Source: a virus
Strand: one strand, 5' to 3'
Virus record (IMG/VR): IMGVR_UViG_3300025694_000022
Location: 1 to 28,673 of that record
DNA length: 28,673 bases
The notes under the pieces: generated by a model
Told to the model about the DNA's origin: nothing
The model's input: only the letters and a program-made list of their open reading frames with translations
Databases searched by the model: none
Position numbers and translations under genes: made by a program
Shown: positions 3,764 to 14,867 of the stretch, piece by piece
How positions within the stretch are numbered: the first letter of the stretch is position 1
Layout: every line of letters begins with the position of its first letter

Positions 3764-3934
3764 ATGAAAAAAGTAGTAATACAAAGCAAAGATATATCAC
3801 CAAAGCAGTGGTCAAACTTTATTTTAGAGTTAAATCTAATAAAAAAGTCTTGGAAACCCTATGCAACATTAGATTTACAAGGCCCTGGTGTAAAAAAAAT
3901 AATAAAAATAGGCACAAAACCATACAAACTTTAG
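3764..3934 (+). CDS. Small hypothetical protein (56 aa)
   Basis: The product begins MKKVVIQSKDISPKQWSNFI and ends KIIKIGTKPYKL. The pattern SKDISPKQWSNFILELN...KSWKPYA is familiar to me from uncultured marine phages, which supports it as a real gene although it is short. It is the last gene of the left block; its stop codon lies inside the perfect palindrome at 3929-3947. No function is known. Confidence 0.7.
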   Translation: MKKVVIQSKDISPKQWSNFILELNLIKKSWKPYATLDLQGPGVKKIIKIGTKPYKL

Positions 3935-3947
3935 AATCATTCTAAAG
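3929..3947. promoter_or_regulatory. Perfect 19-base palindrome, Irr-box-like
   Basis: CTTTAGAATCATTCTAAAG is a perfect inverted repeat around a central C and contains the stop codon of the preceding gene. It agrees with the TTTAGAA-N3-TTCTAAA layout I recall for the iron-control element bound by Irr in alphaproteobacteria. It shares AGAATCATTCTAAA with the element at 1576-1594. An operator or a transcription-end hairpin are both possible. Confidence 0.5.
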
Positions 3948-4008
3948 TGTTCCGCACATAAGGGGAATTCTAGGGTAATTTTTTTTTTTAGTGATCACTT
4001 TTTATTGG

Positions 4009-4151
4009 TGGCACAGTGGCACAAAGTCCAAATTTGACCTATTATCGTTGGTATTATTGACTAATAGGTGTGCCAAAGGGTCGTTTTTTGGTGGCACAGT
4101 ATGGCACACTTGACAGTATTGTTGAATAGTAGACGATTTTGCTCTGGCACA
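4009..4151. repeat. Six TGGCACA heptamers, iteron-like
   Basis: Direct copies lie at 4009-4015, 4017-4023, 4092-4098, 4102-4108 and 4145-4151, with one inverted copy (TGTGCCA) at 4069-4075. Two pairs are spaced by 8 and 10 bases. The inverted copy directly abuts TAATAGGT (4062-4069), which pairs with ACCTATTA (4037-4044). This density is far above chance in AT-rich DNA and suggests a protein-binding array. Confidence 0.65.
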
Positions 4152-4172
4152 CCCCTAAAAGTATGGTTAGTA

Positions 4173-4189
4173 TATGCAGTGACTGCATA
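4173..4189. promoter_or_regulatory. 17-base perfect palindrome, candidate operator
   Basis: TATGCAGT-G-ACTGCATA is a perfect inverted repeat with a one-base centre, the size of a dimeric repressor site. It lies between the TGGCACA array and the 4308 gene. Confidence 0.55.
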
Positions 4190-4307
4190 GGTGTTAAATA
4201 AGCATTGGTATTGGCTGTTTATTTTTATGTACTCGGCGCGCGAAGGATTTTTTGGTTTTTGTAAAAACAAATTTGCCTAAAAATTCCCCTATAGTATAAG
4301 GATTGAT

Positions 4308-11289: not shown

Positions 11290-12753
11290 ATGAAACAAGA
11301 AGTAATAGATAAACTACCACCTGACGCCAAAAAACAATTCCTTAAATACGCAATAAAACTTTCTGAAAAGAAAACTAAATCAAAAGTCCACGATGACTTC
11401 TTAACTTTTGTCAAACACGTGTGGCCTGAATTTATTGAAGGTAAGCATCACAAAAAAATTGCTGACAAATTTAATAAGCTTGCAAACGGTGAGATCAAAA
11501 GACTAATTATTAATATGCCACCAAGGCATACTAAATCAGAGTTCGCGTCCTATCTTCTACCCTCTTGGATGGTAGGACGTAGACCTAATCTAAAAATAAT
11601 ACAGACGACCCACACAACGGAACTCGCGATCCGCTTTGGTCGAAAAGCTAAAACCTTAATGGACTCCGAGGAATACAAACAAGTATTCCAGACAAGATTA
11701 CGAGAGGACAGTCAAGCCGCGGGTAAATGGGAAACCGAACAGGGCGGTGAATATTATGCAGCCGGTGTTGGATCTGCGATCACGGGCCGTGGAGCGGACT
11801 TATTGATTATCGATGATCCTCACTCGGAACAAGATGCATTGAATATGTCTTCAATGGAAAGAGCTTATGAATGGTATACATCTGGTCCACGACAACGTTT
11901 ACAGCCTGGTGGATCAATCGTTGTTGTAATGACAAGATGGAATATGAAAGATCTAACAGGAATGTTATTAAAATCTCAAAAAGAATTAAAATCAGATAAG
12001 TGGCACCTTATTGAATTTCCAGCAATACTACCATCAGGTAAACCTGTATGGCCAGAGTATTGGAAACTTCCTGAACTAGAATCTGTTAAAGCCAGTTTAA
12101 GTGTTGGTAAGTGGAACGCACAGTGGATGCAAAACCCAACATCTGAAGAAGGTAGTTTAATTAAACGAGAATGGTGGAAGGTTTGGGATAAACCTTACAT
12201 CCCGCCGCTCGATCATATTATTCAAAGTTATGATACAGCCTTTCTTAAAAAAGAATCCGCCGATTATTCTGCTATTACCACCTGGGGAGTCTTTTATCCA
12301 AACGAAGATAGCCCTGCTAATCTAATATTACTCGATGCATTCAAAGAACGATTAGAATTTCCAGAGCTAAAAAAAGAAGCTTATGAGCAATATAAATACT
12401 GGAATCCAGAAACGGTGATCGTGGAGGCTAAAGCTTCAGGATTACCTCTCACTTATGAGTTGCGAAAAATGGGGATTCCTGTTATAAATTTCACTCCCTC
12501 AAAAGGTAATGATAAACACGCGAGGGTAAACGCTGTAGCTCCACTCTTTGAGAGTGGCCAAATTTGGGCGCCGGACGAAAAGTTCGCAGAAGAGGTTATA
12601 GAAGAATGTGCATCATTTCCTTATGGAGATCACGATGATTTGGTGGACAGTACGACACAAGCAATAATGCGTTTTAGACAAGGAGGGTTCGTGGCGCATC
12701 CAGAAGATTACAAAGAGGATTCATTACCTCAAGTTGAAAGAACGTATTATTAA
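11290..12753 (+). CDS. terL: Terminase large subunit
   Basis: The 487-residue packaging motor has an N-terminal ATPase and a C-terminal RNase-H-like nuclease. Walker A is the variant MPPRHTKSEF (about residues 76-85), Walker B is LLIIDDPH (about 171-178), followed by MTRWN. Nuclease acids are D315 (IIQSYDTAF) and the HDDLVD cluster at about 448-453, with HARVNAVAPLFE before it. It cuts and pumps DNA through the portal. There is no convincing ribosome site before ATG 11290; the frame is open back to 11200 but lacks a start. It lies 6 kb from terS, on the other strand. Confidence 0.95.
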   Translation: MKQEVIDKLPPDAKKQFLKYAIKLSEKKTKSKVHDDFLTFVKHVWPEFIEGKHHKKIADKFNKLANGEIKRLIINMPPRHTKSEFASYLLPSWMVGRRPNLKIIQTTHTTELAIRFGRKAKTLMDSEEYKQVFQTRLREDSQAAGKWETEQGGEYYAAGVGSAITGRGADLLIIDDPHSEQDALNMSSMERAYEWYTSGPRQRLQPGGSIVVVMTRWNMKDLTGMLLKSQKELKSDKWHLIEFPAILPSGKPVWPEYWKLPELESVKASLSVGKWNAQWMQNPTSEEGSLIKREWWKVWDKPYIPPLDHIIQSYDTAFLKKESADYSAITTWGVFYPNEDSPANLILLDAFKERLEFPELKKEAYEQYKYWNPETVIVEAKASGLPLTYELRKMGIPVINFTPSKGNDKHARVNAVAPLFESGQIWAPDEKFAEEVIEECASFPYGDHDDLVDSTTQAIMRFRQGGFVAHPEDYKEDSLPQVERTYY

Positions 12754-12755
12754 TT

Positions 12756-14867
12756 ATGATTCAAGCAGCACCATTAGTTTTATCATTTGCAAGAGCAGTA
12801 CCGATGCTAAACAGACTTGTTGGAGCTGTAGGAATAACTGAATTAGGTGATCGTGTAAATAATTATATTCAAGAAAATCCAGACGAGTCTGCGAAAATTG
12901 TATCAATGATTATGCCTACTCAAGGTATTGCAAATGCACTTAAAAATAAATCTAGTGAAGATGTAGAAGAAGTTGAAGAAACAGAAGAAGTTACTACAGG
13001 CAGTGGAGTAGAAGAAAGAATTAGAGAGATTTTAAGAGAAGCAGGCGTTGAAGATGCGGATAATCAAGACCTAACAGATTTACCAAAAGATTTAGAAGCT
13101 AAAGTTATGTCAGGTATTGCAAAGTCTTCTACTGATAGAAAAAAAGATATGATAGAAGCTTCTGCTATTATAGGTTTAAGTGGACCTGGTAGAGAAAGAA
13201 AAAAAATGATTGATGACGTATCTGGTAGATATGATGAAGGTGGTGTTGAAGAAGTAACCAGACCAAAATATGAAGGATATAAAAAATTTATAAGAAGACG
13301 AAGAGCGGACGGCGGTGCGATAGGCATTGAAGTTTTATTCGAAGAAAAGAAACCAAGACAAGGATTATTTATGGGCGGACCGGCGTTAGAAGGACCGGCG
13401 TTAGGTATTTACAATTCTATGAAAGCGTATCAGTCTTTCACAGATCAAGAGATAGCAGATGCTATCAAACAAGCAGGGTATGAATTACCAACTGCAGATT
13501 CAGGGACAACACCACCAGGTTCAACACCAGGTAATAATCTAGGTTATCAAAGTGGTAATGAAGGACAAGGAGGAATAATGAATCTTGATCCATATAGCAA
13601 AGGACCTGCTTCTCCTGGAAATCAATCTAATACTTCTTCAAAGTATAGTGTTGCTGAAATAGAAAAAGGTATAGATATTTATGGAAACCCAATAGATGAA
13701 TCAATAACTAGTAAAGGTTTTATTGGAAGCGCTATGGATAAATTTTCTAGCCTCCCAGGAATTAAACAAGGAAAAAATTTAATTAATACTATAATGGATA
13801 ATACTTTAGTTGGTAGAATAGCTGCAATGAGAAATCCGTTAAATCCTAATGCATCAAATTATAATCCGAGTCTTCAAGGTCAAATAGATATGCTTGGAGG
13901 TATGACAGGTACAAAAATTAGTGGAACATATATAGATCCATATAACAAACAATTAGGTTTTACTGATAACCTTACAGGTCAACCAATGACTGGTAGAGAT
14001 CCTAATTCTGGTTTAGGAGTGTACGGACCCGGTTCAGTATTAGCTGGTCAAAATGTTGTATCAGGTTTTGGAACAAATGATTATGAGGATCAATTACAAG
14101 GTTACATTGATAAGATGTTGGATCGTAGAACCAAGGGAATATTAACAGAATTTCAAACTGCTAAATTAAAAGCAGCTGAAGCAGAATTAGAAAGAGCTAG
14201 AGAAAAAGCACAAGATAGAATTGATGAACTTAACAGACAAAAAATAGAAGCTAAAAAAGCAGGTGATGCTAAAAAAGCAAGAGACTTACAAATTGCAGCA
14301 GCAGCTAAAGCACAAGAGATATCAAACGCAGCAGCTACAGCACAACAAGAAGCTATCGAAAAAGATCAAGATAGAAGTAGAGATAGTGGACAAGCTGGTA
14401 GTGGCACAGGAGGTATAGGTGCAACATCGGGTTATGGATACAATCAAGGTAATGAATGTTTTGAACCAAATACTTTTATTCAAATGGCTAATGGTAGTGA
14501 GAAAAAAATTAAAGATATTCAATTGGGTGATGATACTAAAGGTGGAGAAGTTACAGGCGTGTTTAAATTTAAACCTTCTGGAGACGGTATTTACAGTTAC
14601 AGAGATGTTACCGTTGCAGGTAGCCACTTTGTTAAAGAAGATGGTAAATTTATTATGGTTAAAGACAGCCCACTTGCAGTCAAGATTGATAAGATACCAG
14701 TTGTTTACTCACTAGATACAACTGGCCGAAGAATCTTTATTAACGATATTGAATTCGCTGATTACAACGGTGATGGTGTTGCTAAAAACTTCCTAACGAA
14801 TGCTGGTGTAGATCTTACAGGTTTTGATACAGAGGTATTAAGACAAGTAGAAAATAGATTAATATAA
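12756..14867 (+). CDS. Large virion-type protein with C-terminal Hint domain
   Basis: This 703-residue protein has an N-terminal helical part (PLVLSFARAVPMLNRLVG), a GGAIGIEVLFEEKKPR motif at about 186-201, a Gly/Asn/Pro-rich middle, an Ala/Lys/Glu coiled coil (about 463-550) and, from Cys568, a Hint (hedgehog/intein) domain: NECFEPNTFIQMANGS, KIKDIQLGD, and a VTVAGSHFV block. The domain begins with the expected catalytic Cys but the end (DTEVLRQVENRLI) has no intein C-terminal His-Asn, so splicing is not expected; N-terminal cleavage or ligation to a nucleophile is possible. Position between terL and portal suggests an internal head or ejection protein. Confidence 0.75.
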   Translation: MIQAAPLVLSFARAVPMLNRLVGAVGITELGDRVNNYIQENPDESAKIVSMIMPTQGIANALKNKSSEDVEEVEETEEVTTGSGVEERIREILREAGVEDADNQDLTDLPKDLEAKVMSGIAKSSTDRKKDMIEASAIIGLSGPGRERKKMIDDVSGRYDEGGVEEVTRPKYEGYKKFIRRRRADGGAIGIEVLFEEKKPRQGLFMGGPALEGPALGIYNSMKAYQSFTDQEIADAIKQAGYELPTADSGTTPPGSTPGNNLGYQSGNEGQGGIMNLDPYSKGPASPGNQSNTSSKYSVAEIEKGIDIYGNPIDESITSKGFIGSAMDKFSSLPGIKQGKNLINTIMDNTLVGRIAAMRNPLNPNASNYNPSLQGQIDMLGGMTGTKISGTYIDPYNKQLGFTDNLTGQPMTGRDPNSGLGVYGPGSVLAGQNVVSGFGTNDYEDQLQGYIDKMLDRRTKGILTEFQTAKLKAAEAELERAREKAQDRIDELNRQKIEAKKAGDAKKARDLQIAAAAKAQEISNAAATAQQEAIEKDQDRSRDSGQAGSGTGGIGATSGYGYNQGNECFEPNTFIQMANGSEKKIKDIQLGDDTKGGEVTGVFKFKPSGDGIYSYRDVTVAGSHFVKEDGKFIMVKDSPLAVKIDKIPVVYSLDTTGRRIFINDIEFADYNGDGVAKNFLTNAGVDLTGFDTEVLRQVENRLI

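Follow-up and report, generated by a model that had tools for sequence, protein, structure and literature searches.

A Heptad Array in a Gene-Free Region of a Marine Phage Genome

Six copies of the heptad TGGCACA are packed into a gene-free gap in the genome of a marine phage, and the question raised by this locus is what they are for. The window, by which we mean the whole 28,673-base virus record analyzed here, belongs to the Pelagibacter phage HTVC027P/023Pt group; its large terminase (TerL, at 11290) is 80% identical to that of phage 023Pt_psg01 and 77% identical to that of Pelagibacter phage HTVC027P. In the left part of the window, early genes (HNH and an MGME1-like exonuclease) are followed by the array, the gene p96, a 72-aa ORF, and the gene for the terminase small subunit (TerS), which lies 0.5 kb from the array gap and runs in the opposite direction. 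From comparison of sequences, we consider the ∼380-bp gene-free element at 3928−4305 most likely to be the iteron-type replication origin of this phage, a reading to which we give about even confidence. The features discussed below are these.

1736−1915, putative RHH protein gene; the RHH fold comes from a reading of the sequence, and a Pfam search gave no match
2639−3331, + strand, MGME1-like PD-(D/E)XK exonuclease gene; co-segregates most strictly with heptad type in family 1 (the family of the window)
3928−3948, palindrome ACTTTAGAATCATTCTAAAGT at the end of a 56-aa ORF; its core TTAGAAT-N-ATTCTAA recurs in many relatives
3935−4307, gene-free gap holding the array, between the 56-aa ORF and the p96 gene
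3948−3954, − strand, degenerate outer inverted heptad TGTTCCG; relatives have TGTGCCA here, 61 bp before pair 1
3961−3988, − strand, left arm of the outer inverted repeat; outward consensus A/T tract-TTTGCC-AAAATTCCCC-TATAG, arms 79% alike
4009−4015, + strand, first heptad of pair 1; exact match, conserved architecture
4017−4023, + strand, second heptad of pair 1 (spacing 8); exact match, conserved architecture
4037−4069, inverted repeat ACCTATTA ... TAATAGGT around the second motif; seen in the sequence
4048−4055, + strand, second motif TTGGTATT, between pair 1 and the inverted heptad; TTGRTAT recurs in array regions
4069−4075, − strand, inverted heptad (the + strand reads TGTGCCA); exact match, conserved architecture
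4092−4098, + strand, first heptad of pair 2 (23 bp past the inverted copy); exact match, architecture
4102−4108, + strand, second heptad of pair 2 (spacing 10); exact match, architecture
4145−4151, + strand, single outer heptad, 43 bp past pair 2; exact match, architecture
4173−4189, 17-base palindrome TATGCAGTGACTGCATA; unconserved
4230−4246, + strand, GC-rich block TACTCGGCGCGCGAAGG; recognizable in nearly all relatives, whatever their heptad
4263−4290, + strand, right arm of the outer inverted repeat; runs into CTATAG just before the p96 gene
4308−4598, + strand, p96, a 96-aa gene directly downstream of the element; context gene
4812−5324, − strand, TerS gene, neighbor of the element; does not track the heptad

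The original prediction placed six TGGCACA heptads within 143 bases of gene-free sequence, and all are found there (direct copies starting at 4009, 4017, 4092, 4102, and 4145 and the inverted copy at 4069−4075), with the two pairs at the predicted 8- and 10-base spacing and the gap extending from 3935 to 4307. The inverted repeat ACCTATTA (4037−4044)/TAATAGGT (4062−4069) was also correctly located, TAATAGGT sharing T4069 with the inverted heptad. The 17-base palindrome does occur, but it is the least conserved part of the locus and is broken or absent in the relatives compared. The array lies where it was expected, but the conserved element is wider, about 3928−4305, with the outer arms and the GC block. 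No other heptad cluster in the window matches the array, which has 6 copies in 150 bp against a maximum of 3 in 100 whole-window dinucleotide resamples, and only three other copies of TGGCACA occur in the 28.7 kb, scattered within genes. An Rfam search returned no family match, its one hit being a sub-threshold chance match within a gene. RNA folding gave stable structures on both strands, which we regard as uninformative because TGTTWCA arrays have direct copies only.

As for the genes of the window, the exonuclease is homologous to mitochondrial MGME1 (E = 2e-8). p96 is confidently predicted to be a small all-beta protein (pLDDT 93), and a fold search with it returned no PDB match with E <0.1; relatives of p96 are present in many pelagiphages (HTVC025P, 026P, 021P, and 121P). 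Farther along, 6562−7284 encodes a Gene product 88 family protein (PF17338, E = 6e-41), which adjoins the terminase throughout the group and does not track the heptad, and 8378−8761 encodes an Hjc/VRR-like PD-(D/E)XK nuclease, whose C-terminal tail repeats L-x-ACGLKLEAC in relatives (L105, L255, and L256). The C-terminal stretch of a 703-aa ORF at 12756−14867, CFEPNTFIQMANGSEKKIKDIQLGD..., resembles a Hint/intein-type domain.

Geometry of the Array and Turnover of the Heptad

Conservation of the array and its spacing was among the checks proposed with the original prediction, and the layout proves to be nearly invariant. The relatives compared are loci that carry p96 or exonuclease relatives, most of them on metagenomic contigs, and they include 87 distinct TGGCACA arrays; a DNA-level similarity search against GenBank phages returned nothing useful. 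Across the 87 arrays, pair 1 has a spacing of 8 or 9, the inverted copy stands 58−60 bp from the start of pair 1, the distance from the inverted copy to pair 2 is 23 bp (51 arrays) or 14 bp (36 arrays), and pair 2 has a spacing of 9 or 10. A single copy follows 42−43 bp past pair 2 in 49 of 51 arrays, and an outer inverted copy precedes pair 1 by 61 bp in 65 of 67 relatives. Each phage genome has one array, at a consistent place; the corresponding element of HTVC027P is at 14.75−14.95 kb.

At this same locus, relatives carry about 20 other heptads, assigned by semiautomatic labeling that left 31 family-1 loci unlabeled. They include TGGCAAG, TGTCTCA, TGCTACA/TGCTTCA, TGGAACA, TGTAGAA, TGTGGAA, AAGTAGA, GGTGACC, and more; HTVC027P has TGTTACA/TGTTTCA, and HTVC023P follows the same plan with TAGGAAA at spacings of 8, 44, and 11. 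All copies have changed together, which points to a common reader since independent drift would not alter every copy.

The outer arms span about 45 bp in relatives. The arms of any one locus are more alike than arms taken across loci (0 of 20,000 shuffles in a permutation test reached the observed mean), and thus the arms co-vary. Around its array, HTVC023P has arms that are quite different in sequence (27 nt, 78%); those of the freshwater phage DSL-LC04 are 36 nt long (83%), end in TATAG, and flank a GCGCGCGC block. A/T tracts are present at the element, and a GC block (TACTCGGCGCGCG...) stands after the array in relatives. Three tandem 33-nt repeats are seen at L107:12469−12567, between the TerS gene of HTVC023P and its p96 relative. 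The right arm in many relatives (L136, L106, and others) contains CTCACTATA, which we take to be a nine-base match to the T7 promoter core; the annotations of the relatives examined include no single-subunit RNA polymerase.

Between pair 1 and the inverted copy lies the second motif. TTGRTAT occurs in 166 of 203 array regions, where 27 would be expected. A perfect IHF consensus occupies the place of this motif in 17 of the 20 TGTTWCA arrays of family 1 (0.6 expected); in a second family, described below, 8 of 17 arrays have one in the interval from the pair to the inverted copy (0.05 expected). None of the 87 TGGCACA arrays has a perfect IHF site, and the class to which the window belongs has TTGGTATT instead.

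A Second, Distantly Related Phage Family

Scanning for the pattern of paired plus inverted TGGCACA returned mostly members of the HTVC027P/023Pt group, together with other phages in which the array lies upstream of the terminase. A search with the TerS of one such phage gathered a distantly related family (family 2), in which TerL is clearly shared with the pelagiphages, an SNF2-type helicase is shared as well, and PolA weakly so; no p96 or exonuclease homologue was detectable in it. Among the 65 family-2 loci with enough sequence, the heptad array is upstream of TerS in 45 and downstream in 9, the downstream arrays being CGAAGAA- or CCTCTTC-like repeats of another kind. The array sits at the early/late junction and usually has about 11 copies, of which the left half are inverted. 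The right half consists of a pair, an inverted copy about 60 bp on, and, after about 23−25 bp, more copies, a layout that appears close to that of the window. The heptads are TGGCACA, TGACACA, TGCTACA, TGCAACA, GCGCACA, TTACACA, GTACACA, and GTCACAC.

In the bacterial scan, about 6 of 31 hits are expected by chance, by our own estimate. Bacteroidetes and actinobacterial contigs (L485, L498, L510, L492, and L500) have pair-plus-inverted TGGCACA arrays beside primase- or RepA-like genes. In L489, L491, L502, L511, and L512 (Mesorhizobium and a Hyphomicrobiales MAG), small TGGCACA arrays recur in intergenic sequence, several of them next to a porin-like gene.

Heptad Type and the Early Genes

In family 1, heptad identity is predicted by the exonuclease (AUC 0.92), p96 (0.90), and the Hjc/VRR-like nuclease (0.94) and not by TerS (0.61) or TerL (0.57); the TerS value is 0.86 among non-TGGCACA loci alone. 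Between close pairs, defined by protein identity of at least 80%, a large heptad change (a difference of at least 3 bases) occurs in 0 of 807 pairs for the exonuclease, 27 of 1488 for p96, 6 of 322 for Hjc/VRR, 41 of 769 for TerS, and 60 of 257 for TerL, counts that are descriptive, as the pairs are nonindependent. The family-2 pairs with at least 80% identity and different heptads number 80 for TerS and 144 for TerL and 0 for PolA, for primase, and for most of the remaining early families, where the pairs are few. Two family-2 loci, L601 and L607, share 98.6% identity across 3 kb of HNH-TerS-TerL; their heptads differ, and their early/array sides are almost without similarity. In L604 and L606, the TerS proteins are 100% identical, and again the heptads differ. 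Such identity on the terminase side under different heptads, with none for the early genes, indicates that the heptad belongs to the early module, and the near-identity of TerS−TerL argues against terminase as the reader.

The search for an initiator or repressor that binds TGGCACA, which the original prediction had called for, identified none, and TerS, the putative RHH protein, and p96 are each argued against. TerS proteins that are identical or nearly so are found under different heptads, including two at 94% identity, one with TGTTACA and the other with TACTACC. The putative RHH protein is common to L185, L256, and L258, which carry TGGCACA, TTCTACA, and AGTTACA, respectively. A p96 that is 99% identical accompanies TGGCAAG in L194, and one that is 30% identical accompanies TGGCACA in L037. 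The Hjc/VRR-like nuclease was rejected despite its AUC, given its 6 close pairs with a large heptad change. For the exonuclease, there is no such pair, but the proposed specificity residues fail in L040. Its tracking could also reflect linkage because the gene adjoins the array in most family-1 genomes and because L126, at first sight an exception, is recombinant within the gene, with a breakpoint at about residue 143 at which the array type switches and an array-side part that matches its array type; in HTVC023P and DSL-LC04, the exonuclease is 13−16 kb from the array. We therefore treat the exonuclease only as a linked candidate reader. Among the genes that the two families share, none emerged as tracking the heptad.

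A Proposed Replication Origin and Its Alternatives

The element has two features of an iteron-type origin: several short repeats in ordered spacing within a noncoding region and, at the level of the module, a repeat type that co-segregates with the replication genes, the single-gene counts in family 2 being small. That the repeat type follows the early and replication genes and not the terminase, in two families, is what an origin or early control site would lead one to expect, and its adherence to the early module leads us to favor an origin over early transcription control or a packaging site. The prediction of an origin or master control region is partly supported by the conserved array and by the co-segregation with early genes, but it gains nothing from the GC skew proposed as a check: the turn near 4.7 kb is a flip in gene direction, and in three complete relatives the skew only follows the gene strand. 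The constant proximity of the element to TerS counts against an origin. In the mechanism that we infer, a sequence-specific protein of the early/replication module would bind both direct pairs as well as the inverted copies in their fixed geometry, the DNA would bend at the TTGRTAT that separates pair 1 from the inverted copy (several relatives have an IHF-type site there), the A/T tracts beside the outward-facing arms would open, and replication would start at the element. The iteron sequence would be swapped or rewritten in concert together with the early genes, with the geometry staying frozen.

The main rival, which fits much of the same evidence and which we judge rather unlikely, is control of early transcription, in which the heptads would be operators for an early-module regulator and the outward arms promoters that were originally divergent. 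Co-segregation with the early genes fits this reading equally well, the element stands between divergent gene blocks in family 2, DSL-LC04, and HTVC023P, and the arms face outward with TATAG ends, the right one stopping just before the p96 start codon. However, the arms are not reused as promoters might be: the arm motif is without a strong copy elsewhere in most genomes scanned and is therefore no general phage promoter. In 023Pt and G011, the best other match in the genome to the arm motif is the partner arm; this uniqueness is weaker in G008, a genome with broken reading frames, where other sites outscore the left arm. Moreover, the left arm is retained in the group of the window even though it points into genes running toward it. 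Omega-type ribbon-helix-helix operators are built of heptads bound in direct or inverted orientation, whereas the putative RHH regulator of this family (1736−1915) does not track the heptad.

A site for the initiation of packaging (pac or cosB-like) that terminase would read, composed of repeat, bend site, inverted repeat, and repeat with the GC block as the cut site, seems to us improbable, although the element is next to TerS or near it in all arrangements seen, among them the rearranged HTVC023P and DSL-LC04 and other phages with TGGCACA arrays. Its layout is like that of lambda cosB, which consists of R3, an IHF site, inverted R2, and R1 (PMC4669245), in having short repeats, one inverted copy, an IHF site between, and TerS nearby. 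The cosB repeat sequence of lambda-like phages varies between specificity groups (PMC4669245) and is matched by the TerS recognition helix, whereas here identical TerS proteins accompany different repeats, the repeat sequence is unmatched to a TerS recognition element, and the terminase identities given above (TerS 94 or 100%, TerS-TerL DNA 98.6%) span different heptads. SPP1/SF6 pac also has sets of direct repeats near the TerS gene (PMC4737164) but differs in geometry, arms, and the extreme heptad turnover seen here. Because the direct repeats of SF6 pac are not read as specific motifs by the isolated TerS DNA-binding domain (PMC4737164), the element may, by analogy, be a pac site whose repeats that domain leaves unread. 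Fixed cos ends at the element appear unlikely: about 250 of 296 family-1 loci extend at least 600 bp past the array, and contig ends show some excess near it without a sharp pile-up. The breakpoints of near-complete contigs differ, and these contigs wrap round, which suggests circular permutation. Very unlikely, in our estimate, is a selfish or structural element (a partition, incompatibility, or recombination site, for example) unrelated to the start of replication or transcription. Some bacterial TGGCACA arrays in plain intergenic Mesorhizobium sequence would suit it, as would the movement of the array as a cassette with its neighborhood, but roughly 6 of the bacterial hits would be expected by chance, and a single array per phage genome in a consistent place, its spacing preserved to single-base precision, points to an active nucleoprotein complex.

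Relation to Known Origins and Implications

The preferred reading, a replication origin, has counterparts in iteron-type theta origins (RepA_N/PLE and plasmids), which likewise have ordered short repeats in a noncoding region. In PLEs, satellites of the Vibrio cholerae phage ICP1, the origin co-varies with RepA, the two being exchanged as one module, and the iterons diversify, escaping an origin-directed nuclease (PMC7145576, PMC8263062). By analogy, PLE/ICP1 may serve as a precedent for heptad turnover, not as proof. The PLE iterons are ∼30-bp semipalindromes, whereas the units here are 7 bp long and form pairs plus inverted copies within outer arms.

The literature searched on HTVC023P/HTVC027P-type phages makes no mention of such an element, and replication initiation in this abundant pelagiphage group appears to be undescribed. 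As a tentative possibility, the element may represent a widespread class of phage origin, with frozen geometry and an iteron word (TG-NN-ACA-like) that turns over in concert and is exchanged with the early genes in at least two distant families, which would have its own initiator family and be driven by origin-directed attack or competition between co-infecting phages. Fixed geometry combined with free 7-bp words makes these loci a natural set of specificity variants in which the reader can be found by co-variation, and the heptad word is a marker for exchange of the early module. The turnover suggests strong pressure to change the word, for example, from origin-directed nucleases as in ICP1/PLE (PMC8263062).
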